From a virus, in IMG/VR virus record IMGVR_UViG_3300028388_002856, positions 1 to 42,392 of that record: a DNA stretch of 42,392 bases. One strand, 5' to 3'. This document shows positions 19,513 through 38,363 of the stretch, in pieces. The notes beneath the pieces are model-generated. The model was not told where the DNA came from, ran no database searches, and was given only the letters and a program-made list of their open reading frames with translations. The translations under genes were made by a program, and so were the position numbers. Each line of letters starts with the position of its first letter. Within the stretch, counting starts at the first letter, position 1.

Positions 19513-19515
19513 ATT

Positions 19516-20292: not shown

Positions 20293-20307
20293 AACTTAAA
20301 ATATTTA

Positions 20308-21267: not shown

Positions 21268-21273
21268 AACAAA

Positions 21274-22251
21274 TTAAGTAAAGGGGTTATATCTATAATT
21301 ATCACTAAGAACAGTATTTCTATTAGATTTATACCATTCTATTGTTTTCTTAATACCTTCTTTGAGAGACGTTTTTGGGAAAAATCCATAAGAGTTAAAT
21401 CTCTCCATATTCATAAGTCTCTTACTATCTCCTGTAGCGTATTCCGTAAGCCAATTAATATCTACGTCTCTATTGCTACTCTGTATAACATAGTCAACTA
21501 CCTTCTTAATAGTATTAGGAACACCAGAGCTTAGATTTAACGGCTCGGTAATTTCTTTTTCTACGCAGTATATCAAGCCATCCGCTACGTCTTCGCTATA
21601 AATAAAATCTCTAATAGGTGCTCCATCTCCAAATACGTCTAATACGTCATTTTTAAACACCTTAGAAATAAGTGAAGGAATAACCATGGCATTATTTTCA
21701 TCAAAATTATCCCAAGGTCCATAAACGTTGCCTGGTCTAATTATAGATATATTTTCCAATTCATATTGAATTCTGTATGCATCAACCTGTAATTCCCCCA
21801 TTCTTTTAGCCCATCCTGGATGTTTATCATTTGGGGAAGGAAAAGTTTTCCAAACATCATCTTCATTAAATACTTCTGCTGGGTGGTAGACTCCGACTGA
21901 AGAAACATATACAAACCAGTCTACATTATTAACTCTTCCTGCTTCTAACATATTGGTATTAAACTGCAACATTGGAACCATAAAGCTTGCCGGATTTTGC
22001 CTAGACATCTGTGGAGAGCCTTTAATACCTACTGTATTAAACACTATGTCTATATCATCTGTAAGCTTTAAACACTGATCGAAAAATCTTAGATCAGCTT
22101 TTTTATATACTATATCTCTATCAAAAAACTTACCGTCTACAATGTCGGTAGCAGTAATTGTACAGTTATACTTTTTAAGCTTATCTATAAGAGCTCTTGC
22201 TACCATCCCGTTAGCCCCTGTCACTAAAACATTTTTATTTTTTAAATCCAT
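21274..22251 (-). CDS. Extended SDR, NAD-dependent epimerase/dehydratase-like, lacking the active-site Tyr
   Basis: A 325-residue extended SDR. TGANGMVA at 11-18 is the nucleotide-binding loop and SSVGVY at 117-122 the Ser strand. The segment normally reading YxxxK is P145-GWA-K149, so the lysine is kept but the tyrosine is proline. IRPGNVYGPWDNFDENNA and RDFIYSEDVADGL match the family. It may be an inactive partner, use a displaced residue, or have a changed reaction. It lies 6 bases before the previous SDR gene in the transcript. Confidence 0.85.
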   Translation of the reverse strand: MDLKNKNVLVTGANGMVARALIDKLKKYNCTITATDIVDGKFFDRDIVYKKADLRFFDQCLKLTDDIDIVFNTVGIKGSPQMSRQNPASFMVPMLQFNTNMLEAGRVNNVDWFVYVSSVGVYHPAEVFNEDDVWKTFPSPNDKHPGWAKRMGELQVDAYRIQYELENISIIRPGNVYGPWDNFDENNAMVIPSLISKVFKNDVLDVFGDGAPIRDFIYSEDVADGLIYCVEKEITEPLNLSSGVPNTIKKVVDYVIQSSNRDVDINWLTEYATGDSKRLMNMERFNSYGFFPKTSLKEGIKKTIEWYKSNRNTVLSDNYRYNPFT

Positions 22252-22253
22252 AC

Positions 22254-23273
22254 CTATTTTCTGATTACATCTAAAGTTATACAGTGAGGACCGCCGCTAA
22301 GTGTTCTAGCATGTCTTAATTTAACCGGAATAGACTCGATTCCGTATTTACTAAGTAGGTTCATTAGAGATACCTGGTGTTCTTCTACCATTACTAAATT
22401 TTCGTTAATAGTAAGTATGTTCATTCCTAACCAAGGCGATGCAGGACACCAATCTTCCATTACTTGAGTTGGATAAGGTTCAGGAGCCCATATTCTATCC
22501 CACTTTCTCAAAAAAGCAGGCATGTTATGCTTATTTACTCTTGCCGGGTTGCATAGTACTAGCTCTTCTCGCAATAGTACGAAAGTAGTATCGATATGAA
22601 TATATGCATACACATCCTCTACTCTATGAACATTATATTCAGGAGAGATATTTTCTCTTAGATAAGATTCTAATAGATCAGCTCCCGCTAAATTACCTGT
22701 ATTAGAGACTAAGTATAGTAGATCGTAATTAGCTTTTAAAATATTAGCCGCATCGAAAATTGGACTAGGTCCGTCCATTAAAGTAGGTCTTGATAAATCT
22801 TCAACACTGTACATATTGTTATCATCTAGAGAAGTAGGAAACTCCACCCAGCTTTCTGGAGTAAAGATATCTCTATATTTGTCTGCTTCATCTCTTCTTT
22901 GATGTAAAGCCATTGGAGTCTTTATTACTTTACAGTCTACTACTAAAAGCGGATCTCTAGGACAGTAATCATAATACGAATCAGTAAAAGGTCTATCAGT
23001 AGAATTATAGATCTCTGGCGGTCTAATAACATTAACTCCTAATTTAGTTAAAATTTCAGAAATATTATGTAAATCTTCTTCAGTCTCTTCGAGTACTTGG
23101 TCAGGGTAAACTCCAGTAGGTATTTGTTTAAATTGCTCATCTGATAAATGAGCATAGTCAATACATCTTAATGATTTATCTTTTATTGTAGGAATCTGGG
23201 CTTTATTTACGGTACCAACTATAATCGTATCTAATTGACCCCATTCATTGACTACTTTTGGTTGAATTTTCAT
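22254..23273 (-). CDS. Amidinotransferase (glycine amidinotransferase-like)
   Basis: A 339-residue protein of the guanidino-group-modifying pentein fold. The catalytic residues of arginine:glycine amidinotransferase can be placed: D174 in FDAANILK, H226 in HIDTTF and C331 in SGGPHC near the C-terminus. PRDPLLVVD at 105-113 and the EPYPTQVMEDWCPASPW region are also family-like. The reaction would transfer an amidino group from arginine to an amine, forming a guanidino compound. In this setting the acceptor could be an amino sugar made by the DegT-type enzyme. It overlaps the upstream GT10-like gene by 29 bases. Confidence 0.88.
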   Translation of the reverse strand: MKIQPKVVNEWGQLDTIIVGTVNKAQIPTIKDKSLRCIDYAHLSDEQFKQIPTGVYPDQVLEETEEDLHNISEILTKLGVNVIRPPEIYNSTDRPFTDSYYDYCPRDPLLVVDCKVIKTPMALHQRRDEADKYRDIFTPESWVEFPTSLDDNNMYSVEDLSRPTLMDGPSPIFDAANILKANYDLLYLVSNTGNLAGADLLESYLRENISPEYNVHRVEDVYAYIHIDTTFVLLREELVLCNPARVNKHNMPAFLRKWDRIWAPEPYPTQVMEDWCPASPWLGMNILTINENLVMVEEHQVSLMNLLSKYGIESIPVKLRHARTLSGGPHCITLDVIRK

Positions 23274-24678
23274 AAATTTTATTTATATCGTTATAAACTC
23301 TCTGTAAATATTCCTTTGAAAAAGCTTGATCTAAGAGTAAATTCTGATTATACTCTAATATATGAAAAATATCTCTATACCACTTGTCTATTTCAGAAAT
23401 ACTTTTTTGTGATAATCTGTATATTTCTTTTAACACAAGTTCTAACCTCTTATTATTATCTAATTCTGAGTCATATTCCTCGTTTATAAAAGGATGAAAA
23501 GTTTTAAACCCTAATGATCTAAGTTCTGCTAAAGAGTTTGAAGAGCCTATAATAATAAATGGCTGTAAATTAGCGATAGGTTTGAGAGCTTTTTCTGAGA
23601 TATAATCCCCTGGTCGAAAAAAATTAGTTTCTGATACTATATTAATATATGAATCAATAAACGGTTCGTAGTTTTCATAGTACATACCGCGTACCTCGCT
23701 TATATCTTCGTAGTCTATAGTAATATTAGGTATGTTTTCTACTATATGGTTATACTGATTAACTATGTCTTCTTTATTCATTTCCCATGATAGTAACTCT
23801 ACAGCGGGATCAATTAATTTACCTTGAGGATTACATTCAGGATCTAAAAAATCATAAGAAATTAAAAAATCATTTATAATATCCTTATAGTAAAAATATA
23901 GAATAGGGTATAATCTTTGAAGTCTTAATCTACGGTTAAACATTAAAAATTTATACCTGCGTTCATTTTGAGGAAGTTTATCCTTAGTTACTAATGTATA
24001 GCCTTTTATTTTACTCCCTTGTTTTTCTGAGTTCAGCATTTTAGTATATTCTAAATGCTTTGTTGGGTACGCCCAGTTAAAAGTAAGTACATTGATTTTA
24101 TTAGAATTTGGTACAGTTTCAGTATGCCATTGATTATAATCGGTTTTAAGAGAATGTGAAGCTGTAGCGAAAATAACTTTTTTATGCGGTATAACTAAAT
24201 TATCTAATTCTATATGAATAGTCTCTAACATACCTTCTACTAAAATACCTTCTGTCGAGTAATTTATTAATAGGAATACATTTTCTTTTTCTCTAATTGC
24301 TTTGAGAGCTTTTTTTGATATAAAACGAGTAACGGGAAAATTTTCATTTATAGAGTACTTATACCCCATTGCAGCATTTGGAGACCCGTGTATAGAAATA
24401 CAGTAAATTAAAATACTACTTCCTTCTATTTTACCTATATCATTTGTACTTACAGTTCCACTTGTTAAGAACTGTAGTATTTTTTCTCCATCAAAAACAG
24501 ACACTCCATCATCGTACTTATCTGAAATAGAAGGTAGTACTAAATACGGCTCTATAAAACTGTTTTCTACATAAGAATATAGGTACCGGTAATTTACCCC
24601 ATTAGGGACGGTATAGTACGGACTTATATAGTCATACACAAGCTTAATATCTTTTTTAGTAAACTTTACTTTATCCAT
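23245..24678 (-). CDS. GT10 (fucosyltransferase)-like glycosyltransferase, copy 1
   Basis: A 477-residue protein. Its C-terminal region (about 345-404: NIVSETNF, then ISEKALKPIANLQPFIIIGS and a LGFKTFHPF box ending EEYD) resembles the donor-binding half of GT10 fucosyltransferases, where a TEK box and a Pro-Phe-(V/I)-x-x-G strand bind the nucleotide sugar. A second conserved box, KFLMFNRRLRLQR at 243-255, is shared with the next gene. The N-terminal 230 residues are divergent and presumably recognise the acceptor. The two genes are tandem paralogues sharing TAATG-type coupling at 24678. The sugar donor is unknown. Confidence 0.65.
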   Translation of the reverse strand: MDKVKFTKKDIKLVYDYISPYYTVPNGVNYRYLYSYVENSFIEPYLVLPSISDKYDDGVSVFDGEKILQFLTSGTVSTNDIGKIEGSSILIYCISIHGSPNAAMGYKYSINENFPVTRFISKKALKAIREKENVFLLINYSTEGILVEGMLETIHIELDNLVIPHKKVIFATASHSLKTDYNQWHTETVPNSNKINVLTFNWAYPTKHLEYTKMLNSEKQGSKIKGYTLVTKDKLPQNERRYKFLMFNRRLRLQRLYPILYFYYKDIINDFLISYDFLDPECNPQGKLIDPAVELLSWEMNKEDIVNQYNHIVENIPNITIDYEDISEVRGMYYENYEPFIDSYINIVSETNFFRPGDYISEKALKPIANLQPFIIIGSSNSLAELRSLGFKTFHPFINEEYDSELDNNKRLELVLKEIYRLSQKSISEIDKWYRDIFHILEYNQNLLLDQAFSKEYLQRVYNDINKIYENSTKSSQ

Positions 24679-26075
24679 TACCTATCTACCACAGTTAATA
24701 CCTCTTTAAATATAGTCTGATCAGTGTAATAGTGTATTAGGAGGTTGTGATTGTGGATTAGTTTATCTGTAATAGATAAATATTTTTCATGAATTTCGTC
24801 TAAACTCAACATACACAGGTTACTAATATTATCTAATACTGCGCTTAACCTAGCTCTATAGTCACTTATATCGTCATAACTCTCATCAAAAAATTCTGGG
24901 AATGTTTGAAATCCAAGCTCTTTAAGATGCTTTAAAGTATGAGGATTCCCTAAAATTATAAATGGATGGTAATTAATTATCGGACGAATGCTTTTTTCAG
25001 TAATAAAGATAAATTCCTTTTCAACAAACGTTTCATTTACCACAGAAAAATAGGTGTTTACCCAAGGTGTTTTGTCCATAAGGTAATTATTCATATGTGC
25101 TACCTTATCAGGATCTTTTTCGTCTAATACGTAAGGGTATGAATCCCCAATATGCTTTTTAAATTCCTCGTTTCCAGGAAGACTACAGAAATTATCAAAG
25201 TCTTCAGACTGTAGAAGTGATACAAGTCCTTTATTGAAGAGATTTTTTTTCTTAAGTTCAAGTATTAAGTCAGTCCTATGGTACCTATACCTGCAGGAAT
25301 TGCGGTTAAGGTTAAGGAAATAAAAATTTCTTTTTAATTTTAGTTCATCTTGAGATACTATAAGGTTTGATTCAGGTAAATTATTAGTCTTTTGATCCCA
25401 TCTTTCGTGTACAACTGCTTGCCCTGGATTGTGCAGTATATAAAAAGGTATCCAATGCACTACCATAAATGATTCTGTGTTGTTTCTTTTTATATAATCA
25501 TCATACTGTTGTTTTATATCAGCAGTATTAGTCAAGTATACTATTTGCACAGTATCTAATTTAACTTCCTTTACAAATTTTTCAATACTACTAAAGAAAG
25601 AGTCATCATGATAAAATCCGCCTTCCCGTTCGTCAGAAAGGACAATTTTTACGTTTGGGCTGTTTTTTATAAAATCAATAGTTTTAGGAAGGAAAACTTC
25701 TTTTAAATCACAATTGGTTATGTAATCTACTATTTTTTCATCTGCTACAGTGGCTATATTAAAAACATTTATATCATTATTAAGCTCATCTGTAGTTAAA
25801 TCCGTATATAATTTACGCTCTATTTTAGGTAAAAAAGAAGAAGAAGCTACTTCTTTACAGTGCATCAGAGTATGGTAAATGTCGTTCCCATTTTGGAGTA
25901 ATCTATAATTATGAGAACTAGAATACCTTACTATACTGTTTTCTTTTACATTATTCCTATCCTTTAAATTACTCAGGTATTCAAAAATATGAGGCAGTGA
26001 GTTTATGTTATACCCCATTCCTAAAAACCCTATAGGAGTTATAAACTCATACAGGAGGTTAAATTTTCTATCCAT
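24678..26075 (-). CDS. GT10 (fucosyltransferase)-like glycosyltransferase, copy 2
   Basis: A 465-residue paralogue of the following gene in the transcript. The shared C-terminal box is at 341-401 (TYFSVVNETF, FITEKSIRPIINYHPFIILG, LGFQTFPEFFDESYD) and the FYFLNLNRNSCRYRYHR box at 251-267. The rest of the N-terminal half has diverged beyond easy alignment, which suggests different acceptors. Here the TEK triad (359-361) is canonical, while copy 1 has SEK. No membrane segments are visible. The gene overlaps the upstream radical SAM gene by 8 bases. Confidence 0.65.
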   Translation of the reverse strand: MDRKFNLLYEFITPIGFLGMGYNINSLPHIFEYLSNLKDRNNVKENSIVRYSSSHNYRLLQNGNDIYHTLMHCKEVASSSFLPKIERKLYTDLTTDELNNDINVFNIATVADEKIVDYITNCDLKEVFLPKTIDFIKNSPNVKIVLSDEREGGFYHDDSFFSSIEKFVKEVKLDTVQIVYLTNTADIKQQYDDYIKRNNTESFMVVHWIPFYILHNPGQAVVHERWDQKTNNLPESNLIVSQDELKLKRNFYFLNLNRNSCRYRYHRTDLILELKKKNLFNKGLVSLLQSEDFDNFCSLPGNEEFKKHIGDSYPYVLDEKDPDKVAHMNNYLMDKTPWVNTYFSVVNETFVEKEFIFITEKSIRPIINYHPFIILGNPHTLKHLKELGFQTFPEFFDESYDDISDYRARLSAVLDNISNLCMLSLDEIHEKYLSITDKLIHNHNLLIHYYTDQTIFKEVLTVVDR

Positions 26076-27303
26076 TGAAGTACTGCCTCCACTCAGGTAA
26101 ATAATCGTATATCCTTAGTTTACGAGTCGTATCTAAAATATTGGTAAATGAATAGAACCTCTTTTGTTGATCTAAATCCGGTTCTCTTAATAGTTCTACT
26201 TTTAACCTATCTACTTCATAATCTTCAAGATACTTTATGCTATTTAATATTTCATGTTTCATTTTTTCAGGTACCAGGCTAACGTGGTGATGGGCCGGGT
26301 AGTGAACATAATTGTGTGCAATGGGAAGGTTATGTTCCATAACAAACTTTTTAAAGTTATCAATATTATAAATATTAAGAGCACTTAAAGTCTGACATAC
26401 CTCTAAAGTAAATTTATCTCTATATTTAAGTATTTTATGAAAAGCTTCCATAATTAAATTCCAATCAGAAGGATACCTAATGTAGTGGTTTCTTTCTTCA
26501 AGATCATCTATAGATAAATGCAATTTTACACTTTTAAAATTATCCCATAGTTTTATAAAAGCATCTGGAAATTGGGTACAGTTTAAGCTGTATTGAAGTT
26601 TTATATCTTTTGCTCGGCCATTATCTATGAATTTTTGCAAAAAGTATCCGTGTTCACGAATTAAGGTAGGTTCTCCTCCATTTATCCAAACTTCTTCTAA
26701 TTTACTACATTTTTCATATAAACGGTCATAAAATTCTAAATCTCGATACCATTCTGTTTTAACGTCAAGTTTGTAATAATCATTTTCAAACTCTGTTCCT
26801 TTAAAGCTTTTTATATCTTGATTCCATCGGTTAGAAGAAAAAGGATTACAGGTAGCACACTTTAAGTTACAGACTGTACCTAATCTTAGTTCTATATACC
26901 GGTAATCTATACTCTTTAAACTACCGTCGGTATTAGTATTATTAAAACATTCATCTATAAGTTTTTTAAACTTAACATTAGATTCATATCTTCTAGAAAA
27001 TGTTTTACCTTCTTCGTATTTGTAGCATTTTTGACATAGAGAAGAATATCGGCCCTCAAGCATATCTTTTCTAAGTTTGTTAAATCTCTTAGAATTAGCT
27101 ATATCATCAAGAGAATCCTTAGACAAAAGGAAATGGTCGTCTTCGTTTTCAGCTTTTGATGCAACTGATGCGCCGTTTTTCATTTCTGTTAAACAACAGG
27201 GGGTAACCGTGCCAATAGGATGAGTAGCTAAATGTATCCACGGTAGAGTACAAAAGGGAGTTTCCTTTTTAGGGACATTTTCTATATCTCTGTAGTCCAC
27301 CAT
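26068..27303 (-). CDS. Radical SAM protein with N-terminal twitch-type Cys cluster (A)
   Basis: A 411-residue radical SAM protein. The [4Fe-4S] motif CxxxCxxC is C145, C149 and C152 (GTVCNLKCATCNP), with the SAM-binding GGEP at 209-212. Ahead of it is an N-terminal cysteine set: C18, C36/C37 and C90-x-x-C93 (FCTLPWIHLATHP, PCC, CQKC). This arrangement is typical of 'twitch'-domain radical SAM proteins, in which the auxiliary cluster domain is N-terminal and not C-terminal as in SPASM proteins. The substrate is unknown. It overlaps the next twitch gene upstream by 22 bases. Confidence 0.88.
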   Translation of the reverse strand: MVDYRDIENVPKKETPFCTLPWIHLATHPIGTVTPCCLTEMKNGASVASKAENEDDHFLLSKDSLDDIANSKRFNKLRKDMLEGRYSSLCQKCYKYEEGKTFSRRYESNVKFKKLIDECFNNTNTDGSLKSIDYRYIELRLGTVCNLKCATCNPFSSNRWNQDIKSFKGTEFENDYYKLDVKTEWYRDLEFYDRLYEKCSKLEEVWINGGEPTLIREHGYFLQKFIDNGRAKDIKLQYSLNCTQFPDAFIKLWDNFKSVKLHLSIDDLEERNHYIRYPSDWNLIMEAFHKILKYRDKFTLEVCQTLSALNIYNIDNFKKFVMEHNLPIAHNYVHYPAHHHVSLVPEKMKHEILNSIKYLEDYEVDRLKVELLREPDLDQQKRFYSFTNILDTTRKLRIYDYLPEWRQYFNG

Positions 27304-28637
27304 TCGTACACCTTTTTATTATGTTTTAAGTATATATCGTTTAAAACGTTTTCCTGTCTACGCCACTTATCTACTTTTGCTAGGTTAGCTTTTCCTCTTT
27401 TAAGCCCTTCTTTCCAATCAGTATATTGCTCAGAAAATACCTGTCTATTTTTAAGATCAATTAAACAAGGAATCCAATTTTGTAATTTAGGGTTATTTCC
27501 TACTTTAGGTTCTATATATGAAATTACGTCATCAATTACTTCATTAAATAATTCACGAGGGAGTACCTGAGGGCACATCATAATAGAGCTGTCAAAAGCG
27601 AATGTAGTTTTTATTAGAGTATTTACGTCTAATTCTATAGAAAGATCAAATAGGTCTTTAAGGCTAAATAGGCCTGGTGTAGTGATTGTAAGATCGAATG
27701 TAATTCCGTAATCACCATACTGTTTATTTAAAAATAAATAATCTTTAAAATTTTGTATCCACCGGTTCCATTTGATACCATGTCTAACATACTCTACTAT
27801 CTCTCCAGTTCCATCAATTGAGGCACAAATTTGTACCATTTTAAAATGAGGTAACAGTTCTTTTAAGTCCCAATGTTTATAAGTTGTACGAGAAAAATTA
27901 GTATTATACCTAACCCATACGTTTTTAGCTAAATCGTTTTTAACTAAATATTCCATTATCTCCCAATGAATCTCCCACATTAAAGGTTCTCCTCCTACCC
28001 AGTATATTTCTTCAATAGTACCGTTTTCTACCGCTTTCCATAATTCAGCTTCAGCAACTTCGGCTTGAAACTTTTCTATAGCAGGTTTAAACTCTTTTTT
28101 AGCCCATAAATCCGCATTTTCAGGTCGGTCGTAGTCCCCCATCGCACGTCTTTCTGCTTCCCAAGAAGAGGATAGCTGATCACCGCACATCCTACACTTA
28201 AAGTTGCATAGGTTTCTAACCCTATAGTCAAACGAAATAGGAGGCATTGTTGTAAATCCTGTTTCATCTGTTTTCTCAAAAGCTTCTTCTACTTTATGAG
28301 GGAATAAAGTCTTGTTAAAGTAATCTCTATAAATAGAAACGTTAAGTAGTTTATTGTTACATACCTGACATTGAGGGATCTCTTTGCCGGCCATTAAATC
28401 TCTTCGAATACCTTTCATGTATTCTGAGTTCCAGTGTTCCTCTAAAGAACTTGGATTATAAGCGGAATCATTATCTGCCTTATCAGAGTCTAGATACTGT
28501 GTAGCCCAGTCTGCTTTTTCTCTCGATGCACAGCATAGACGTCTTTCACTTTGGGGTGATAGATAGGTATGGGACCAAGGGGCCATACAAAATGTTCTAT
28601 TTCCTTCCGCAGGTAATAATTTATTTTTATTTTTCAA
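27282..28637 (-). CDS. Radical SAM protein with N-terminal twitch-type Cys cluster (B)
   Basis: A 451-residue relative of protein A. N-terminal cysteines are C17 (FCMAPWSH), C35/C36 and C90-x-x-C93. The radical SAM motif is C144, C148 and C151 (RNLCNFKCRMCGD), and GGEP is at 215-218. A CASIDGTGEIVEYVRHG segment at 271-287 is shared in form with other members and lies where strand 5 of the partial barrel should be. The C-terminal 90 residues are Lys/Trp-rich. The gene shares ATGA with the compact SDR gene downstream in the map (28634-28637). The substrate is unknown. Confidence 0.88.
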   Translation of the reverse strand: MKNKNKLLPAEGNRTFCMAPWSHTYLSPQSERRLCCASREKADWATQYLDSDKADNDSAYNPSSLEEHWNSEYMKGIRRDLMAGKEIPQCQVCNNKLLNVSIYRDYFNKTLFPHKVEEAFEKTDETGFTTMPPISFDYRVRNLCNFKCRMCGDQLSSSWEAERRAMGDYDRPENADLWAKKEFKPAIEKFQAEVAEAELWKAVENGTIEEIYWVGGEPLMWEIHWEIMEYLVKNDLAKNVWVRYNTNFSRTTYKHWDLKELLPHFKMVQICASIDGTGEIVEYVRHGIKWNRWIQNFKDYLFLNKQYGDYGITFDLTITTPGLFSLKDLFDLSIELDVNTLIKTTFAFDSSIMMCPQVLPRELFNEVIDDVISYIEPKVGNNPKLQNWIPCLIDLKNRQVFSEQYTDWKEGLKRGKANLAKVDKWRRQENVLNDIYLKHNKKVYEWWTTEI

Positions 28638-29188
28638 AATTTTATATTTTGTATTTTAGAGTTATCTATATCTACTGAGTATTCTAATTCCTGATAATTA
28701 TATATATTTTCTAATAAAGAAATAAATGCAATTGCAGATTTTTTTCTTACTCCTGGATCGTCAACATGATGCGGATGAAAGTTAATAAACCTGGTTTTAC
28801 TGTTTTTTTCTAAGGTGAAATATCTAGTAAATAGGCTTTCAGCATAAGTTTTTTGTGCTCTATATAAATAATGTTCGTCGTAGTCAATAAGACCTGTTGT
28901 TAAATGTATAAAGTATTTAGGTCTTTTTGATAACTTCTCAATTAAGTAAAGGTGATTAATAGGGATTAAAAAAGAATCTAAGTCGTATCCTGAGATTGCT
29001 CCTGGGAATTTGTTAGCTCCTGTTATTACTATATCGTAAGAAGGGTTTTTATTAGTGTAGTTGTCTATGCTTTCCCTATCTACTAAATTACATTCTTCCT
29101 TAGTGGGAAAATCTATGGATAGGTAGGTATCCGTAATTTTAAGTTGATTAGCATACTTGCCATTTCCACCTGTATATAAAACTCTCAT
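28634..29188 (-). CDS. Compact SDR-like protein
   Basis: Starting at the ATG at 29188, one base after the stop of the upstream radical SAM gene, this is a 184-residue protein. A longer reading from 29260 would add 24 residues that overlap that gene and is unlikely. It has a Rossmann loop TGGNGKYA at 6-13 and an intact YxxxK at 109-113 (YRAQK), preceded by a HLTTGL strand. Extended SDRs have about 300 residues, so this keeps just the core. It could reduce or epimerise a small sugar or act as a dehydrogenase. No close family is recognised. Confidence 0.7.
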   Translation of the reverse strand: MRVLYTGGNGKYANQLKITDTYLSIDFPTKEECNLVDRESIDNYTNKNPSYDIVITGANKFPGAISGYDLDSFLIPINHLYLIEKLSKRPKYFIHLTTGLIDYDEHYLYRAQKTYAESLFTRYFTLEKNSKTRFINFHPHHVDDPGVRKKSAIAFISLLENIYNYQELEYSVDIDNSKIQNIKF

Positions 29189-29189
29189 A

Positions 29190-30371
29190 CTATTCACATT
29201 TACCGCATACTGTCTTACATATGCCAAATTGAGTATTATTTTTAAAATTATCATATACAAACTTATGGAGTATACCTGTATCGTACACCTCCTGTATAGT
29301 CCTATCTTTAAGTGAAAAATTTTCCATTCCTAATTTAGTCACACTATTTAGGATTTCAACCTGATAGGGAGATTCATCATTAGTAGAGTGTCTAAGTTTT
29401 ATACTAAATTGCGGTGGTATTATACAGCAGGGCATTAAATATCCATTGTACGTAATATAAAGATTATTAGCTTCTGTAGTTAACTCCCCAGGGCTGTCTG
29501 CATTAAAAGAATAGCAGGTTTGTTTAGTTACTCTATTTAGTTTATCTATTTCTTCCTGAGGGAAAATAGGTTTACGTGGAACATAGTCTTTACGTCTATG
29601 ATACGTCATTAAAAAATCTTCTTCTGATTCTATTATTAATGGATGTGCTATAGGGTTTATTTCTTTCAATAATTCCTCCAACTTTCTAAAATCCTCTCTA
29701 GCCCAATCCTTAGTTCCTAATTTATTTACAATTTCATCTTCAGTAAAGCTTAAAGAATGTGTATATTCACCCTTCATATTAAACCCTCTGGTATATTCTG
29801 TATATTGAGTAAATGGTTTTAGTAGTAGTATGTTAGTTAAAGTAGAGTTTTTAGCCAGATTTAATATAGGTTGAATCTGATCTCTAGTTTGGTCCCATAA
29901 TAAGAATTGAATTTTAAAATACTGTTCCGGTGTTGCCTTATTTTCAGAAAAAGCTATAAAATTTTCATATACTTTATTCCATTTAGCATTAATTCGATAG
30001 AGCTCATTTTTATCGCCGTATCCATCAATACCGAATATCATTCCTACTCCCAACTCAGCTAAAGCTTTATACTGCTCTGGTGAGCCTATTCCTCCGTTAG
30101 TGTGAATTTCAAATCTACAGTTAGGGTTATTTACTTTAATCCATCTAGCTATTTCAACTATTTCAGGACTCCCCATCCCATCACCGAAGTTACCGCAAAC
30201 ATCTATTTTATCTAACTGTTTAAGCAGGTCTAGTCCTATAACTCTCTTAACATCTTCTAGCTTCCAGTAAGTTTGGTCAAATGGAGCGAATCTACCGTAT
30301 TGTCTCCTACTGCATACCGGACAGCCTGCGTTACATATAGAGGAGAGTTCAAAGTCTAACTGCTTTATCAT
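29190..30371 (-). CDS. Radical SAM protein with C-terminal SPASM-like Cys region (C)
   Basis: A 393-residue radical SAM protein of a different build from the other four. CxxxCxxC is right at the N-terminus (C13, C17, C20 in SSICNAGCPVCSRRQYG), and the usual GGEP position holds GNFGDGMGSPE near 60-70. The extra cysteines are at the C-terminus: GYLMPCCIIP and C385, C389, C392 in the last 10 residues. This recalls SPASM auxiliary clusters used on peptide or carbohydrate substrates. It shares ATGA with the small oxygenase gene upstream (30368-30371). Confidence 0.87.
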   Translation of the reverse strand: MIKQLDFELSSICNAGCPVCSRRQYGRFAPFDQTYWKLEDVKRVIGLDLLKQLDKIDVCGNFGDGMGSPEIVEIARWIKVNNPNCRFEIHTNGGIGSPEQYKALAELGVGMIFGIDGYGDKNELYRINAKWNKVYENFIAFSENKATPEQYFKIQFLLWDQTRDQIQPILNLAKNSTLTNILLLKPFTQYTEYTRGFNMKGEYTHSLSFTEDEIVNKLGTKDWAREDFRKLEELLKEINPIAHPLIIESEEDFLMTYHRRKDYVPRKPIFPQEEIDKLNRVTKQTCYSFNADSPGELTTEANNLYITYNGYLMPCCIIPPQFSIKLRHSTNDESPYQVEILNSVTKLGMENFSLKDRTIQEVYDTGILHKFVYDNFKNNTQFGICKTVCGKCE

Positions 30372-30937
30372 GATATATAGAAGTATAGCGAAAATCTATT
30401 AAAGTTTTCGGGAACTGTTCCTATTAAACCGTGATTAACCTCATTAGGATTTTGTAAAAAGTATCCTGTGTTTTTAATATAAGGGAGAGTAAATATAACA
30501 TTTTGATCTTTATCCCCAAAACTTGTACCTAAAGTATCACAGTAATCATCACCGATATAAATTTGCATTGCAAGTTTTACTGCTTCATTATCAAAATGCA
30601 TAGGTAATGTATACTTGTAAGTATCCCACCACAGATTAAACGTAACGTTAGATATTTTGCATTTAGTTAGCGAGTAGAAAGTATCGAAAAAGATATCTGT
30701 ATTAAGGTAGTCTTTAATATTAGTTAACAGGTTAGATTGAAAGGCTTTGTACTGTTTTCTAGGTAAATCTTCCTGTAAGTGTCCTTTACTCCAACCACTA
30801 CGGTCATTCTGCAGTCTTTTTACTTCCTCTGTAATTTCGTTAAGAGTACTTTCATTGAAAAATTCACGTATAATATATAGGGGCTTATTTCCTATATTTA
30901 CCTTAATAGAATCCTCTACAAATCTCTGACTAATCAT
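30368..30937 (-). CDS. Small 2-oxoglutarate/Fe(II) oxygenase-like protein
   Basis: A 189-residue protein that fits a minimal double-stranded beta-helix oxygenase. H114 and D116 are in LPMHFDNEAVKLAMQIYI, the distal histidine is H169 in NEVNHGLIG, and R181 in NFNRFSLYFYI would bind the 2-oxoglutarate carboxylate. The core strands are evident between these motifs. It is shorter than the other two oxygenases of the island, and placed between two radical SAM genes, which suggests action on the same substrate. Assignment rests on motif spacing. Confidence 0.68.
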   Translation of the reverse strand: MISQRFVEDSIKVNIGNKPLYIIREFFNESTLNEITEEVKRLQNDRSGWSKGHLQEDLPRKQYKAFQSNLLTNIKDYLNTDIFFDTFYSLTKCKISNVTFNLWWDTYKYTLPMHFDNEAVKLAMQIYIGDDYCDTLGTSFGDKDQNVIFTLPYIKNTGYFLQNPNEVNHGLIGTVPENFNRFSLYFYIS

Positions 30938-30942
30938 TTTAC

Positions 30943-32568
30943 TTATTTACGTAGCTTTAATTCACTGCCGGCATACTTAGTATCTTGATCTTTTTTTAGC
31001 TGTTCTATTAAATCTATCATATCATCTTGTTGCTGATCATCTGGTTCGATGTATTCTTGAGAACCAGGATTAGCCCATTGTGGGTTGAATACCCAGCCTT
31101 CATCTTTAGCTTTCTTAAGAACATCATGAACATATCTGTTTGACTTAGCATCATCTCCATCAACAAGTTCTTGAAATTTACCTAAATCTGTTTCAGGTAT
31201 TGAATCCCACCATTCTTTTAACATAGGAAATGCTTTATGGAAATCTAATTTACGTCTTACATCATATTGTGCATAAAAAGATTTGAAATCTCTTTCTCTA
31301 GACTCTAATGAAGATGTAAACGAATGTCCTGTATCTACCTGCTTAATATATTCAATCATACGAATAATGCCATCTCTTTCAAAATCTACAAGACCGTTTT
31401 TACCTCCATTGTAATTTTTATCCAACCACTCTTGAATATGTGCTGCTCTTTCTAGTCTGATTTCTCTTGGTAATGTTACTATAGACTGGAAAGAAGGGAA
31501 ACGTAAGATATTAAATGACATTACAGCAGCGTTGTGTCCAAACTCTGCTTTTAGTTTTAACATCTCATCCATAAATTCAGTAATAGAGAAAAGACATAAA
31601 GCATTTATGGTTAGCATAACATTGACTGATTTAATGTTTGCTTCTCTATTAACTCTATACATATTTTTTAACCATAGGTCCCAATCAAGCCCGTATCTAA
31701 TATATTCAGCTTGTAGTCCTGTTGCTTCACAGGAGGTATATATACTAAAGTCTTTAAAACTATGAGAAGATTCTATTAATGCATCCAGAAGTTGTTTCTT
31801 TTGACCTAAATTAGAGTTGACCGCAAAGGCTACGTTACATTCTGGATGGCTTTTCCACCAGTCCATTAGCTTCCAAAAGTCAGGCGACATTGAAGGCTCA
31901 CCTCCAGTAACTCTTAGCTCTCTTAACGAGTGTTGCAGCTCGGCTTCCCACCATTTCCAAAATGCTTCTACATATGGGTTTCCTTCATTCTTACGTCCGT
32001 ATGGCATTGCGTGTGCTCCATCATGTCTAAAAGCTCCTGCTCCATCAGATACTAAGTTCTGATAGGCTCCAAACTTCTTAATGTCTTTTTGCCAAGTAGT
32101 GGAGAAAGAAGCATTACAGTACGAACATCCAAAGTTACAGTTAGGATCAAAAGCGATTTCTAACGTTTTAAGATCTACATCTTCAGTGTATCCTAATTCT
32201 TCTTTTGCCTCTCTTAGTTCCTCATCAGTGTAAATAACTGATTTATATACTCTATCGGATACTTTGTCTTCACCTAAGTCTTCTATTTTCCAGCAGTATT
32301 CACATTCTTTTGGGCGAATACCTTCCATCATTTCTTTACGTACAGCTTTCTTGTACGTAGTGTTATGGATAGCTTTATAGGACTTTGCTACTTCTTCAAG
32401 TGGAATTTTATGTGCAGGCGGGTGGTGGCAAGATGCTGTTGTTCCATTTCCTAACCAAATAGTAGCATTGTACCATTTAGCACCGCAAAACGACTTTGAT
32501 AACTTATTAACTACTCTGTCTCTGTATTCTTGAAACGTCTCGTTTTCTTTTTTTGCAAAAACCCCCAT
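30943..32568 (-). CDS. Radical SAM protein with N-terminal twitch-type Cys cluster (D)
   Basis: A 541-residue radical SAM protein. N-terminal cysteines are C28 (FCGAKWYNATIWLGNG), C47 (CHHPPAHKIPL) and C89-x-x-C92 (CEYCWKIED). The radical SAM motif is C144, C148 and C151, and GGEP is at 222-225. It shares the N-terminal boxes and an NPYVEAFWKWW segment with protein E, so they are paralogues. An additional C-terminal tail of about 80 residues, acidic and Gln/Asp-rich, is absent from E. It follows the LamG-like gene directly, the stop and start sharing a base (32568). Confidence 0.88.
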   Translation of the reverse strand: MGVFAKKENETFQEYRDRVVNKLSKSFCGAKWYNATIWLGNGTTASCHHPPAHKIPLEEVAKSYKAIHNTTYKKAVRKEMMEGIRPKECEYCWKIEDLGEDKVSDRVYKSVIYTDEELREAKEELGYTEDVDLKTLEIAFDPNCNFGCSYCNASFSTTWQKDIKKFGAYQNLVSDGAGAFRHDGAHAMPYGRKNEGNPYVEAFWKWWEAELQHSLRELRVTGGEPSMSPDFWKLMDWWKSHPECNVAFAVNSNLGQKKQLLDALIESSHSFKDFSIYTSCEATGLQAEYIRYGLDWDLWLKNMYRVNREANIKSVNVMLTINALCLFSITEFMDEMLKLKAEFGHNAAVMSFNILRFPSFQSIVTLPREIRLERAAHIQEWLDKNYNGGKNGLVDFERDGIIRMIEYIKQVDTGHSFTSSLESRERDFKSFYAQYDVRRKLDFHKAFPMLKEWWDSIPETDLGKFQELVDGDDAKSNRYVHDVLKKAKDEGWVFNPQWANPGSQEYIEPDDQQQDDMIDLIEQLKKDQDTKYAGSELKLRK

Positions 32569-33143
32569 TATATCTTATGTATAAAATTACAATTACCTGT
32601 TAAATCAAATGCCTTCTCGTATATAAATTCTTTAAAATCATGATGAGCAACGAGCTCCTCTTCATGATATAGTCTAAATTCATGTATATCTAAATCACAA
32701 TAATGGTGATTTTCATGATGCCAAGGAAAATTACCTGCTCCGAATACTAATTGGGGATCAGGGACTTGACTAAAGTTTTTGGTTTCAATTACTTTTTTAT
32801 CGTCAATAAAAACTTCAAAGTCTGAATCTACTTGATTTTTTACTGTAACACTATGTCTCGTATTAATAAATATTGTATCTTTTATTTCACTCCAATCCAT
32901 ACCATTGTCCGTATGCACATCTATATTACTCATATGTTCATTATAGTAATTAAGGGAAGTGTATATTGGTAGGATAGAAAAAATTGTGTTCTTATCTCCA
33001 TACGTTTTAATTAGAGTAAAATCAAACTCCATTCTAAAATTATACTTTCCACCTAAAATTTGATTACCGGATAATTTAAAAAACGATGGACAAACTCTAG
33101 TTGGCCAAAATGCCCATGGCTGATTATTTCTTATACTTAGCAT
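32568..33143 (-). CDS. Stand-alone LamG/concanavalin-type lectin-like protein
   Basis: A 191-residue protein, almost entirely beta-strand in pattern, with jelly-roll lectin features: YNFRMEFDFTLIKTYG near the start, HSVTVKNQ, then SDFEVFIDDKKVIETKNFSQ (the LamG-type 'f.vyvDGk.v' hairpin), FGAGNFPWHHENHHYC, and a C-terminal LDIHEFRLY strand. No signal peptide is present. It overlaps radical SAM gene E by 20 bases and abuts gene D, so it is embedded between two paralogous radical SAM genes. It may present a glycan or glycoprotein substrate to them. The fold is inferred from pattern. Confidence 0.6.
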   Translation of the reverse strand: MLSIRNNQPWAFWPTRVCPSFFKLSGNQILGGKYNFRMEFDFTLIKTYGDKNTIFSILPIYTSLNYYNEHMSNIDVHTDNGMDWSEIKDTIFINTRHSVTVKNQVDSDFEVFIDDKKVIETKNFSQVPDPQLVFGAGNFPWHHENHHYCDLDIHEFRLYHEEELVAHHDFKEFIYEKAFDLTGNCNFIHKI

Positions 33144-34509
33144 AAAAATTTTTCATTTCTGGAAACGATTCTAAGAAATTTGTACCTCTTCTTTTGTCAT
33201 ATTCATCTACAAAATTTATAAAATCTTTTCTATGTTTTTCTACGTCATAATTAATACTCTTAGATTTAGCATAATCATATGTACGTTTCATTTTTTGAAT
33301 CTGGATATCAGAAAATCCGTGAGTATTCATAGGGGTATCTTTCATTCCATAGTACATCGCTTTTTTTGCAGACTCTAGTATTAATTCCTTATGTTCGTCT
33401 TCCAAAATTTTAACTGAAAGAAAAGAGGGCCATCTAACATATGAAGTATCTAATAATAAGCATTCCTTCCAGTATCTTTGGTCGTTATGGTATTTCTTTT
33501 TTATTTCATATACCTTATCAATTAATTCACCGTATGTAAACACCGATAGTGCATTAAAGGCAGCCATAATATTTACTGTTACCTTAGGAAGTACATCTAA
33601 TATTTTTTCAATATTACCCCAAAATTTACTATAGTCTAAACCGTACCTTACATATTCAGCTTGTCTACCTACAGCCTCTACTGATGTAAAGATGATAAGC
33701 TCCCGTACTTTATTATTCTCAGTTAGATCTTTTGCAATTGTAATTAACTTGTCAATAAGAGCATCCGGTACACCTAAATTAGTATTAATAGCTAGAGAGA
33801 GATTAGGGTTTTGTTCCCAATTCTCCTGAATATATTCAAGAACTTTAAAGGTATCCTTAGATAGAAGAGGTTCTCCTCCGGTAATTCTAAAGGTATGTAG
33901 GTCTGGGAATAAATCTGGCCACCATTTCCAAAATGCTTCTACATATGGGTTTTCTTCAGAATGTTTATAAGGCATAACCCCATTAGCCTTCATAGTCTGA
34001 ACTTCGTTAAAGTTATACTCGGTAGGGTAACCGCCATACTTCTCAATTTCTTCTACCCATTTGGATGAATACTGAGGTCCACAGTACGCACACTTTAAAT
34101 TGCATGTATTAGAAAAGGATACTTCAACGTATCGCGGGTTATAATCTTTTCTCCAATGTGTATTTACAATTGTATCGAATTGATCTTCTGACCAAGGTTC
34201 AGCTGATTTAAATACTCTATCAGAAAATGAATCGGAATTATCTTCAACGTTCCAGCAATAATTACACTCTTCCGGTCTTTTTCCGTCTAACATTTCTTTT
34301 CTTTTCTTTTTCTTAAAAGAAGTGTTGTGCAACGCTGATGGATTACGTTGGATCTCTCTTAACGGGATCTTATGTGGGGACGGGTGGTGACATGAATGTG
34401 TCAATCCCTTATCTAAATGAATTGTGACTTGCGTCCATTTAGCCAAGCAAAATCCACATCCTACAGAATCCAGCTTCTTTTTTACCTGTCCGTGTAGTAC
34501 TTCACTCAT
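33124..34509 (-). CDS. Radical SAM protein with N-terminal twitch-type Cys cluster (E)
   Basis: A 461-residue paralogue of protein D. N-terminal cysteines are C18/C21 (GCGFCLAKWTQVTIHL), C40 (SCHHPSPHKIPL) and C82-x-x-C85 (CNYCWNVED). The radical SAM motif is C136, C140 and C143 (NTCNLKCAYCGP), and GGEP is at 211-214. The ENPYVEAFWKWWPDL segment is shared with D. It shares ATGA with the stop of the galactosyltransferase-like gene upstream in the transcript (34506-34509). The substrate is unknown. Confidence 0.88.
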   Translation of the reverse strand: MSEVLHGQVKKKLDSVGCGFCLAKWTQVTIHLDKGLTHSCHHPSPHKIPLREIQRNPSALHNTSFKKKKRKEMLDGKRPEECNYCWNVEDNSDSFSDRVFKSAEPWSEDQFDTIVNTHWRKDYNPRYVEVSFSNTCNLKCAYCGPQYSSKWVEEIEKYGGYPTEYNFNEVQTMKANGVMPYKHSEENPYVEAFWKWWPDLFPDLHTFRITGGEPLLSKDTFKVLEYIQENWEQNPNLSLAINTNLGVPDALIDKLITIAKDLTENNKVRELIIFTSVEAVGRQAEYVRYGLDYSKFWGNIEKILDVLPKVTVNIMAAFNALSVFTYGELIDKVYEIKKKYHNDQRYWKECLLLDTSYVRWPSFLSVKILEDEHKELILESAKKAMYYGMKDTPMNTHGFSDIQIQKMKRTYDYAKSKSINYDVEKHRKDFINFVDEYDKRRGTNFLESFPEMKNFYAKYKK

Positions 34510-35921
34510 AACTTAATATCTATCATTGTAGCAAATGGTGCAAGTTTTGTCTCTTTTACAAGTTCGTATTTAACTTGTTTAATACCATCTTCCTTATAAT
34601 TTAACTTATCTTGCTGCATTTGAAGAACATATCTTCTTTCATTCCGTGCTGTTGTTTCTCCTTTAGCAAACTTACCGTCTACAATTCCTTCATCTTTATG
34701 AGGAAGACATCTCATTTTACCGTCTACTCTATAAGGGAGTATAGAGTTAGGAATTCTAAATTCTTCTTCTTTCAACTCAGCATTACTATTCTCAAATCCT
34801 GTGTCTGTCTTATCAAAATCTAAATTAACTACTAACTCTTCAGTTGGTAATTCATTATGGAGATTCATAATCTCTTCAGGGGATAGAGCTCTTTTCCAAG
34901 CAAATACTTTAGCTACATCTCCTTTAAAGTATTTGTATCCGGTTTCTATATCTGTATTAGGTGACATTCCTATTTGAATATCGGCCGGACCGTAGCTTTT
35001 AAGTTTCCCGGACCATTCCATAGGTGATTGACTCCCAAATCCACCTCTAGCATCTACTTCTGAGCCGTTTAGATAGAAATGTGCTTTTTTAGTTTCCTCA
35101 TTAACTACTGCAGTAACCCAACTCCACTGATTATCGTACCTCTTAACCCACATGTAGTTATGGTGGTGAAAAGTATTCCAAAACGTAAATGATAACGCTC
35201 TAGAATTATTAAATGAAATACCATAATCGTATCCTGGTAATCTAAATATAGGGTACTCTACATACTTATTATCAGAATCTCCGATTAGGAATATCTTGTT
35301 CTTGTCAGGTTGTTGGAACGCTCTGACTAATACTGATATAGTATGTGATTTAGATGTTAATCCTCTTAAACTTCTATCAAATGGAACTGTTAGGTATGAA
35401 TCTTCTCCGTTAAAAGAGTAGTACTTATGATTAGTAGCTTCTTTATCAAGGTAAGTATTTTCTGTTAAACCTTCTTTATAGCATCTCCAGAATAGATCAT
35501 CATCTTCCATACCCCAATCCCAATAGTCATTAGAGTATCCATTTGTAGCTTCAACGTGTTCTTTAGAAAATAAAACTGCTCCACCAAAGTACTCATGATA
35601 TTTTAATTGATAATTCATCTGAGAGATCTTCGTAGCAATATGACGAGGTGCTTTTTCTGGATATGAATAATCACAGCCTCCGTCTTCTTCAGGAATCATG
35701 TCAATATCATGCCATACAATATAATCACACCCATCTTCGAATGCATGTTTTGCTGCAATGTTTTTAGTAGCACCTCGATTAAAAAGTTTATCATCTACTT
35801 GATGGGCAAAGTACATATGAAAATCTATACCTTGATTTTTTAAGTACTTTCCTACCTTAGGTATAAACTCATTTAAATGTAACTCTCTATTACGATATGG
35901 GACACATACTCCTAATTTCAT
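34506..35921 (-). CDS. Beta-1,4-galactosyltransferase-like (GT7) enzyme with nested LamG domain, copy 1
   Basis: A 471-residue protein. The N-terminal 155 residues follow animal beta-1,4-galactosyltransferases: VPYRNRELHLNEF at 7-19, FNRG at 47-50, the metal-binding HDID at 71-74 (DVD in the animal enzyme), YFGGAVLFSKEH at 111-122, and WDWGMEDDDLFWR at 134-146. Then comes a LamG-like module (about 168-370, from YSFNGEDSYLTV through HFYLNGSEV to LSPEEIMNLHNE). The C-terminal 80 residues resume the GT7 fold: MRCLPHKDE with H408 in the place of the animal metal-ligand His, and EDGI at 444-447 like the family's DGL box. The lectin module therefore appears inserted within the catalytic domain. No membrane anchor is present. 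Confidence 0.83.
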   Translation of the reverse strand: MKLGVCVPYRNRELHLNEFIPKVGKYLKNQGIDFHMYFAHQVDDKLFNRGATKNIAAKHAFEDGCDYIVWHDIDMIPEEDGGCDYSYPEKAPRHIATKISQMNYQLKYHEYFGGAVLFSKEHVEATNGYSNDYWDWGMEDDDLFWRCYKEGLTENTYLDKEATNHKYYSFNGEDSYLTVPFDRSLRGLTSKSHTISVLVRAFQQPDKNKIFLIGDSDNKYVEYPIFRLPGYDYGISFNNSRALSFTFWNTFHHHNYMWVKRYDNQWSWVTAVVNEETKKAHFYLNGSEVDARGGFGSQSPMEWSGKLKSYGPADIQIGMSPNTDIETGYKYFKGDVAKVFAWKRALSPEEIMNLHNELPTEELVVNLDFDKTDTGFENSNAELKEEEFRIPNSILPYRVDGKMRCLPHKDEGIVDGKFAKGETTARNERRYVLQMQQDKLNYKEDGIKQVKYELVKETKLAPFATMIDIKL

Positions 35922-37351
35922 TATGTTATAACGTTTAGTTTAATATAATTATCTTCTTCTTCAGCTATACTAGATCTAAATAGACAAGTTGATAATCCAT
36001 CGTCTAAATATCCTGTAGCTTTTTCTCTAACTTTTCTCCAATACGTTATCTGATTCTCCCTACTAGCCCAATCTTTCCAGTACCCGTCCGTATAACCTGC
36101 TTCTTCGTGTTTAGAGAGTAAATATCTACCGGTTTTACGATAGGGAAACTTTAATCTATGCACTTTAGAAGTATTAATCTTTTGGTACTGTACATTATAA
36201 TTTTCTCCTTCAGCTTTAATTGGAGTTGCGTCTATCCATTTATTATTTAGTAATGAAAAGTTAGAACTATCGTAGTATGCTTTCCACCTTTCCTTAAGTT
36301 CCGGATTTGAATCATACAGAGAAGTGTTAGGATCTGTATAAAATAACTTACGTATTTCCTCTAAGCTTAATTCTCCGTGCAGTATACCAAAATTTGTTAT
36401 ATGTCCTTTAAAAAATTTTTGTTTATTTTTACGATTAGGGTCGGCAACTCCTAAGTATAAATACGGTTGCTCTGTATACTGTTTCATACCGCTACCGTCC
36501 CAATACTTAGTTCCTACTTCTTTTCCATTTATAAAAAACTGCAGTCTTTTTAGTCTAGCATTTACATTAACTACAGCCTGTATAGGCATGTTCGGTAAAT
36601 ACTCGGATGTAATTGAAACTGGGACCTTATTCTTCAAAAATAATTCAAATTTATAAGTACTAAATGAATTATATGATAAGTTAAGATCTTCTCCTGGGAT
36701 TCCGAATACTGCGTACTCATCAGTAATTTCTGCTGGATCACAGTCTATAATGTCCGGTATAAACGTTACTATATAAGAATACGGTCTTACAGTAGCAAAT
36801 TTATTATCAATACGAATGTAACTATTCTTACCGTTAAAGTATAGCGCTCGTTTGTTTATTGCTGGGACTCTATAAGATTTAGTGTCAAGTACTAAGTTTA
36901 ATTCTCTACACCTAAGCAGGAGGTCGTCATCTTCGAATCCCCATCCTTTATATTTGTTTGAATATCCATTAATTTTATTGAAATCCTCAACCGTGAACAT
37001 GGTGACACCTCCAAAGTAGTTTCTTTGTATGGTACGTTTAAAGTCCCCATCATTTTCAAACTCATTAACAAGCTGTACAGGATTAACACTATACGAATAG
37101 TCTGCATTCCAAGGAAGCATATCTACATCGTGGAATACTACATAATCACAACCTCTTTTTTCAGCTTCGAGAAATCCAATATTAAGCAATTTTCCACGAT
37201 TGAACTTCTTTCGATCGTTTTGATTTACTATAATAATAGTGTAGTCAATATCAGGAAAATTGTCCTGTAAATATCGAGGAATATATTTTTTAAATTCCTG
37301 TAGCTGTTTGTCACGGTTGCGAAAAGGTACAATAATACCTAATTTGTGCAT
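35921..37351 (-). CDS. Beta-1,4-galactosyltransferase-like (GT7) enzyme with nested LamG domain, copy 2
   Basis: A 476-residue paralogue of copy 1 with the same order of parts. VPFRNRDKQLQEF at 8-20, FNRGKLLNIGF at 50-60, HDVD at 74-77 and YKGWGFEDDDLLLR at 134-147 form the N-terminal half. A LamG-like module spans about 168-345 (LYFNGKNSYIRI, FFINGKEVG, LSLEEIRKLFY). The C-terminal half resumes with TGRYLLSKHEE (H415) and GYLDDGLSTCLFR (DGL at 451-453). The GT motifs are closer to the animal enzymes than in copy 1. Start and stop of the pair touch at 35921, and a small acidic gene precedes it. Confidence 0.85.
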   Translation of the reverse strand: MHKLGIIVPFRNRDKQLQEFKKYIPRYLQDNFPDIDYTIIIVNQNDRKKFNRGKLLNIGFLEAEKRGCDYVVFHDVDMLPWNADYSYSVNPVQLVNEFENDGDFKRTIQRNYFGGVTMFTVEDFNKINGYSNKYKGWGFEDDDLLLRCRELNLVLDTKSYRVPAINKRALYFNGKNSYIRIDNKFATVRPYSYIVTFIPDIIDCDPAEITDEYAVFGIPGEDLNLSYNSFSTYKFELFLKNKVPVSITSEYLPNMPIQAVVNVNARLKRLQFFINGKEVGTKYWDGSGMKQYTEQPYLYLGVADPNRKNKQKFFKGHITNFGILHGELSLEEIRKLFYTDPNTSLYDSNPELKERWKAYYDSSNFSLLNNKWIDATPIKAEGENYNVQYQKINTSKVHRLKFPYRKTGRYLLSKHEEAGYTDGYWKDWASRENQITYWRKVREKATGYLDDGLSTCLFRSSIAEEEDNYIKLNVIT

Positions 37352-37536
37352 TACTCTTCGTCTTCTTCAGATTCTTTCTTAGCAACCTTCATAAATTCAG
37401 CCAAGTAAAACTGAACACGGTCTCCCCATTCGTCTTTATCAATCTCTTCAAACCATAAACTTAGTGCGTCTACAGCATTAGCAATTGTCTCTAAAGATTT
37501 AACTTTACGCTCTTCTAGATCTTTTTCTGAACTCAT
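37351..37536 (-). CDS. Small acidic helical protein
   Basis: A 61-residue protein, helical in pattern and very acidic, with a Lys/Glu-rich head, a central amphipathic segment (ETIANAVDALSLWFEEIDKD) and a Glu-rich tail. It is packed between two glycosyltransferase genes with overlaps at both ends (ATGA at 37533-37536 and a shared base at 37351), which supports it as a real gene. It has no Cys, no leader-like double Gly and no recognisable domain, so I see no direct sign that it is a peptide substrate of the radical SAM proteins. Function unknown. Confidence 0.6.
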   Translation of the reverse strand: MSSEKDLEERKVKSLETIANAVDALSLWFEEIDKDEWGDRVQFYLAEFMKVAKKESEEDEE

Positions 37537-38363
37537 ATTAAAACTATTTTATTGCGGAGTACACTCCAGTTATTATAACTAATATACGAAAACTCTTTTA
37601 ATTCTTCAAACATAAACTCAGGATTATTTATGTCTATTTTCATTTTATTCTTTCTAATCGCTAAATACATTTTTTTGTATTCACTCCAAAAAGTATAGTC
37701 TTCTTTAACTGACGCTACTTCTTTTAATCTAGCAACTACAGTACTGTCCCATTTAAAATGATGTACTTGAGTAAATACTTCTTCAATAGGAAAACGTTTA
37801 GGGTGTGATGTACCCCAAGATGTACTACCGTTACCAAAATCTACATAATGTTGACCCGGTGTTACATTAACAGTTCCTTTCATCAAAGTAACTTTATTAG
37901 GGCAAGCACCTGACATTGGATATCTAAAAAAACCTCCTAAAGGAAACTCTTTGTGTAAATCTGTGTCTCTTTCGACTTTTGGAAATGTACCATCTTTACC
38001 TATACGGTCTAAGAACCCCCCGGTAACAAATTCATATCCTTTTCTCTCATTTTCTTTTATAATATCATCGATCGGTTCTGGGTATATCTGTAATTCGTCG
38101 TCATCCGATACTATCCACCAATCGTTTGGGTGTTTAATCTTAACGGTATTATATATATCGGTTACTCTTTCCCAATGAAACTTTGGTTCAGTTACAACCC
38201 AAAAAGGTTTAATACCTAATTCTTCTATTTCCTCTAAAATTGTATCATTATCACTTTGTCGATATACAACAACAAACATCCTATCTACTTTATTCTCATA
38301 ATGTTTTAACATATGTGGTAGAATGTGTGTATTTCTTCCAACAACAGTAACTAAATTAACCAT
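37533..38363 (-). CDS. GT2/GT92-like glycosyltransferase
   Basis: A 276-residue protein with a GT-A type start (VTVVGRNTHILPHMLKHYEN), a VVYRQSDND strand, and an acidic metal/nucleotide motif WWIVSDDDELQIYP (DDDE at 87-90). Further on it has a VHHFKWDS box, seen in 'glycosyl transferase family 2-like' proteins where a late His coordinates the metal. There is no membrane helix. It overlaps both neighbours by 4-8 bases. Donor and acceptor are unknown. Confidence 0.75.
   Translation of the reverse strand: MVNLVTVVGRNTHILPHMLKHYENKVDRMFVVVYRQSDNDTILEEIEELGIKPFWVVTEPKFHWERVTDIYNTVKIKHPNDWWIVSDDDELQIYPEPIDDIIKENERKGYEFVTGGFLDRIGKDGTFPKVERDTDLHKEFPLGGFFRYPMSGACPNKVTLMKGTVNVTPGQHYVDFGNGSTSWGTSHPKRFPIEEVFTQVHHFKWDSTVVARLKEVASVKEDYTFWSEYKKMYLAIRKNKMKIDINNPEFMFEELKEFSYISYNNWSVLRNKIVLI

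Follow-up and report, generated by a model that had tools for sequence, protein, structure and literature searches.

Milk sugar is made by an animal beta-1,4-galactosyltransferase, and alpha-lactalbumin alters the acceptor choice of B4GalT1 in trans. B4GalT1 and B4GalT7 belong to CAZy family GT7, of which the common GT7N and GT7C sequence includes the FNR, DxD, YFGG or YVGG and WGxEDD motifs, a late His, and a DG(L/I) box, all within an uninterrupted catalytic domain. This paper describes two adjacent genes, P0001 and P0002, in a 42 kb IMG/VR virus record (IMGVR_UViG_3300028388_002856; the whole stretch of 42,392 nucleotides is referred to as the window). Their predicted products share this GT7 sequence with the animal enzymes, but lack the N-terminal stem and are split by a LamG-type module.

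Lectin domains adjoining glycosyltransferase domains are known, whereas the module described here is nested within the catalytic core. GnT-IVa (MGAT4A) carries its own lectin domain, through which it binds its product and on which full activity depends, but this domain is C-terminal, linked after the catalytic domain, and both the transferase family and the lectin type differ from those of the phage enzymes (PMC9296478). B4GALNT3/4, which like the animal GT7 enzymes are beta-1,4-transferases, contain a PA14 domain, an all-beta module that putatively binds glycans and is required for activity (PMC11254600). The nearest solved sequences and folds of the phage insert are the lectin-type domains of the sialidases NanC and NanB, as well as pentraxins, which are free-standing or attached to other enzymes and not nested in a glycosyltransferase. 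Uninterrupted GT7 enzymes of bacteria and phages (L120-L135, L137, and similar loci) have the same core end to end, without an insert. In the open PMC literature, general lectin-domain papers were found, but no paper combining galactosyltransferase, LamG, and phage. No earlier description of a GT7 enzyme split by LamG was found in that literature or in structure searches, which leaves uncontradicted the statement of an initial sequence-only reading of the window that no GT7 of this layout had been described.

Results

The window has a G+C content of 33.6% and contains tail sheath, tail tube, and baseplate hub genes, and therefore represents a contractile-tailed phage. P0001, the 'A' paralogue (34506-35921; 471 aa), and P0002, the 'B' paralogue (35921-37351; 476 aa), are complete open reading frames (ORFs) that overlap by one base on the minus strand, on which all features given below are located as well, and are 28% identical over their full length, insert included. 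The sequence-only reading had recognised them as two paralogous GT7 genes by beta-1,4-galactosyltransferase motifs in the early residues; its coordinates were exact, and Pfam places Glyco_transf_7N (PF13733) and Glyco_transf_7C (PF02709) in residues 1-158 of both proteins, far above the cut-offs of 27 and 23 bits (60.3 and 69.4 bits for P0001, 72.9 and 63.6 bits for P0002). The N-block of P0001 (approximately residues 1-154; 35460-35921), as delimited by Pfam, B4GalT7/T1 matches, and a profile of uninterrupted GT7 enzymes, contains FNRG (47-50), HDID (71-74), YFGG (111-114), and W136-G-M followed by EDDD (139-142). That of P0002 (approximately residues 1-156; 36884-37351) contains FNRG (50-53), HDVD (74-77), YFGG (112-115), and WGFEDDD (137-143). 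The FNR, D-x-D, and WGxEDD motifs are conserved across 246 inserted sequences, and in single-sequence searches the sole strong matches of both proteins among PDB sequences were B4GalT1 and B4GalT7 (1e-28 to 1e-22).

The N-block is followed by an insert of approximately 240 residues (residues 155-395 of P0001, 34737-35459; residues 157-402 of P0002, 36146-36883; boundaries approximate), in which the sequence-only reading had seen a LamG-like module. In P0001, Laminin_G_3 (PF13385) matches residues 171-351 (2e-13, 51.2 bits, cut-off 27.6), while the P0002 insert alone gives a weak match below that cut-off (0.0015, 19.1 bits) and is detected by a LamG profile built from the family at 1.5e-45. Each of the 75 sequences in an alignment of P0001 and related proteins combines GT7N, GT7C, and LamG. 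Searched against PDB sequences, the insert family profile matches the lectin-type regions of the NanC and NanB sialidases, an S-layer domain protein, neurotoxin binding domains of the same fold, and pentraxins.

The C-blocks beyond the insert (residues 396-471 of P0001, 34509-34736; residues 403-476 of P0002, 35924-36145) contain the late His and the DG box that complete the GT7 core, displaced by the insert: P396, the metal-ligand-type H408, N427, and DGI (445-447) in P0001, where the block was assigned by profile and hhalign, and P403, H415, N433, and DGL (451-453) in P0002. Since the Pfam GT7 matches stop at residue 158, the proteins could also be read as tandem independent domains, i.e., a complete N-terminal glycosyltransferase, then LamG, then an unrelated C-terminal tail; however, the matches stop there because Glyco_transf_7C does not cover the C-block. 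On a profile built solely from 15 aligned uninterrupted bacterial GT7 enzymes, positions 1-151 correspond to residues 2-153 of P0001 and positions 154-216 to residues 398-462, while for P0002 positions 1-155 correspond to residues 3-158 and positions 148-220 to residues 398-472. The two blocks of each protein are thus collinear and flank the LamG module, with no gap in the core between them, and in uninterrupted GT7 profiles it is the terminal part to which the C-block aligns, without overlap. By hhalign, the whole-protein profile aligned to columns 1-154 of the uninterrupted GT7 alignment (E 1.4e-64) and the C-block profile to columns 154-231 (E 7.5e-13), these E-values, like the others reported here, being from small custom searches. 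The C-block profile had 12 matches at E up to 10 among 177,635 distinct PDB sequences, all of them B4GalT1, with a best E of 0.05 that is weak but specific, and when the C-block of either protein was shuffled 5000 times, no shuffle scored as high as the original on the uninterrupted GT7 profile. In more than 230 of the 246 sequences, moreover, the His and DG motifs are present. On the basis of the B4GalT1-only PDB matches, hhalign, the shuffle test, and motif conservation, the C-block as an unrelated tail was rejected, and a tandem arrangement is considered extremely improbable. It is therefore strongly supported that a LamG-type module is nested in one GT7 catalytic domain at the same site in both copies, as had been proposed from the sequence. 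The catalytic domain is not uninterrupted as in the animal and bacterial GT7 enzymes compared; with both halves there and in collinear order, this is judged by sequence to be a variant layout and no ground for exclusion from the family. By sequence, P0001 and P0002 are classified as metal-dependent enzymes of the galactosyltransferase type in family GT7, with predicted activity, and are encoded by a large myovirus-like tailed phage.

In the PDB alignment, matching ahead of the insert ends at chain residue 218, equivalent to S329 of human B4GalT1, and P396-H408 and P403-H415 retain the 12-residue spacing of P331-H343. The B4GalT1 numbering was anchored on W310, M340, and H343 (PMC6198961). In this enzyme the Trp loop comprises residues 309-318, the lid (338-365), with metal ligands Met340 and His343, closes over the donor, and residues 328-334 of one monomer have been proposed to come close to the partner's acceptor in the dimer (PMC6198961). 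By homology, the insert would be located at S329/R330 (between the residues matching S329 and P331), between the Trp/EDDD loop and the metal-binding lid, beside the acceptor side of the animal enzyme. From this position the LamG module could hold the acceptor or replace the dimer partner.

One confident AlphaFold2 model was obtained for each protein, with mean predicted local distance difference test scores of 92.2 and 92.6 and predicted template modelling scores of 0.85 and 0.88. The sequence-only reading had named as refuting conditions a middle region other than a jelly roll or an N-terminal domain complete without the C-terminal block, and the models did not refute it. The middle region is all-beta with a jelly-roll fold in both models, and in Foldseek it matched PAPP-A, pentraxins, and 4dqa separately from the N-block. 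The N-block itself matched B4GalT1/T7, mostly at 1.4-2.9 A over approximately 155 columns, and several B4GalT7 entries at 3-4.6 A. The C-block is modelled as a helix, the DG box, and two strands, which is the order expected at the end of the B4GalT1 fold.

Among the 246 inserted sequences, the late His is kept in 232, the Gly of the DG box in 244, D72 in 244, and D140 in 242, so that the late His and DG box singled out in the sequence-only reading proved widely conserved. The donor-type Tyr (Y111/Y112), equivalent to Tyr285 of B4GalT1, which has been linked to donor specificity (PMC6198961), is retained in 237. M340, the third Mn ligand of the human enzyme, is replaced by C405 in P0001 and L412 in P0002; this Met is not family-defining, because the uninterrupted bacterial GT7 enzymes aligned here do not keep it either. 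The LamG insert is under purifying selection, and the glycosyltransferase part more strongly so, with median ratios of nonsynonymous to synonymous substitution (dN/dS) of 0.18 (A) and 0.15 (B) for LamG and 0.08 (A) and 0.11 (B) for the glycosyltransferase part, all approximate since median dS is about 0.7-1.0. These data bear on the proposal that the proteins are catalytically retired scaffolds in which the GT7 fold is kept as a lectin carrier, e.g., a virion adhesin. Such a role would agree with the absence of the M340 ligand and with the co-directionality of the A and B genes with the tail genes, but it is very unlikely in view of the stronger selection on the glycosyltransferase part and the retention of the Asp, Glu, Trp, and His motif residues in approximately 88-99% of the sequences.

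Homologues were gathered with P0001, P0002, and relatives as queries, and the proportions within the resulting 362 GT7 ORFs are therefore not population frequencies: 53 are uninterrupted, 245 have an insert of 192-334 residues at one site, which extends the shared insertion noted in the two window proteins to a family, and 64 lack a C-block by the rule used. Of these 64, 41 run into the locus end, and several others are uninterrupted proteins of approximately 210 residues with a weakly matched end. All 245 inserts match a single LamG profile after one iteration. A quick-method tree built from 86 GT7 cores after removal of the insert places the inserted enzymes on one side of one branch and the uninterrupted bacterial and phage enzymes on the other (SH-aLRT 92, not starred), which requires one change of the insert trait and makes a single insertion the simplest reading. 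In a tree of inserts only, the A (97) and B (98) groups stay separate, indicating that inserts remain with their own cores. Probably, a single insertion in an ancestor followed by duplications fits best. Some contigs carry three or more inserted GT7 genes close together, and four loci (L148, L175, L203, L264) contain a further, long-branched group of inserted paralogues. Uninterrupted GT7 genes were encountered on virus contigs of more than 430 kb (L146, L163), and weak GT7C matches elsewhere in two contigs (L112, L113) were set aside as GT2-like, as judged by sequence.

In a cultured-phage collection, neither P0001 nor P0002 had a match at 1e-5, and the glycosyltransferase part of P0002 gave chance matches only at E up to 10. 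Among the best 50 matches in BFVD, no viral protein matched the glycosyltransferase and LamG parts together; giant-virus GT7 proteins matched the glycosyltransferase part only. The same protein is found in loci from metagenome-assembled genomes (L114-L119), and the radical S-adenosylmethionine (SAM) family discussed below scored above cut-off in three of four such genomes tested; these loci are treated as probable binned phage contigs and are not taken as evidence on the host.

The pair is conserved in large tailed-phage contigs: of the 79 loci with enough sequence, 78 have 'B' no more than 2.5 kb upstream of 'A', and in 59 the two are directly adjacent. Next to 'A' the window encodes a twitch-domain radical SAM protein (33124-34509; NF033640, 1.2e-102), a homologue of which is present in 75 of 83 loci (L001-L083), mostly immediately downstream of 'A', and the family was found in 13 of 13 virus records tested. 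A small LamG-like ORF (32568-33143), weak in the window (E 0.0027), takes the position of a stand-alone LamG homologue of the insert that approximately 40 loci carry about 2.8 kb downstream of the 'A' start region. These stand-alone proteins of approximately 245 aa (L033:6937 onwards and about 40 other loci), located downstream of 'A' and the radical SAM gene, may be the origin of the insert or a partner to it. The conserved pairing of A and B, the many relatives with such a downstream homologue, and an insertion point adjoining residues of the B4GalT1 homodimer interface (PMC6198961) would suit an insert that is a protein-protein contact domain, joining A and B, or the stand-alone LamG two genes downstream, in a complex without sugar binding. 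Sialidase lectin-type domains are, however, among the closest solved sequences of the insert, and a pure contact role is regarded as unlikely.

Upstream of 'B' lies a GT2-like gene (37533-38363), just under the curated cut-off, with a homologue in 64 of the L001-L083 loci. Sugar-nucleotide genes (18544-22251) are epimerase/dehydratase relatives, none of them above the curated NCBIfam cut-off, and a contractile tail sheath gene is present in nine of 12 of the longest records. The region 26068-34509 contains five twitch-type radical SAM ORFs, of which four exceed the curated cut-off and one is partial, with small ORFs between them. Besides these, an adjacent paralogous pair (23245-24678 and 24678-26075; 33% identity) is, at the thresholds applied, without a PHROG match and lacks a convincing one in Pfam, and a DegT-type aminotransferase ORF (14295-14933; 212 aa), of which the best match is limited to the early family profile, is possibly shortened.

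Discussion

Taken as a whole, the observations are best explained by an active split GT7 pair in which LamG serves as an acceptor-side substrate-binding platform in one glycan pathway, to which we assign a probability of about 0.55. The enzyme would use UDP-galactose, as suggested by retention of the donor-selecting Tyr of B4GalT1. On the acceptor side, the insert may provide a platform for binding carbohydrate or another substrate, keeping a glycan or glycoconjugate in place during galactose addition by the split core, and an acceptor-positioning lectin is its likeliest role. Processivity, or reading by the enzyme of its own product, as raised in the sequence-only reading, are possibilities only. 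Several observations weigh against this explanation. Besides the replacement of M340, two B4GalT7 chains of 4irp gave longer alignments of 188-197 columns at a root-mean-square deviation of 12-13 A, and with Foldseek otherwise aligning mostly the N-block, the placement of the C-block in the models is tentative. Furthermore, the insert yielded no assignable sugar-binding residues, only four of its columns are near-invariant across all paralogues, and LamG folds serve protein-protein contacts too, for which reason the label 'lectin' is putative.

A and B may act on successive or different acceptors within one pathway, in which the GT2/GT32, sugar-nucleotide, and radical SAM genes nearby are candidate partners. 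The target could be the surface polysaccharide of the infected cell or the virion proteins of the phage itself; as leads only, a change of the host O-chain has been favoured for pelagimyophage glycosyltransferases (PMC7029224), and virion glycosylation has been noted (PMC12619734). In a more far-reaching scenario, which is possible but somewhat doubtful, a lectin entered a galactosyltransferase once, beside its mobile part, and came to read the acceptor from within the enzyme, acting in cis as alpha-lactalbumin does in trans, after which duplication gave neighbouring specialised copies that build an undescribed glycan together with twitch radical SAM enzymes, in a family widespread in phages.

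The nesting point corresponds to a position between two mobile loops that control donor and acceptor binding in the animal enzyme. Hundreds of related sequences and natural uninterrupted relatives make the effect of a nested lectin on acceptor choice directly testable, and possibly provide new tools for galactoside synthesis. Finally, the conserved gene set suggests an undescribed glycan pathway that is conserved among large uncultured aquatic phages.
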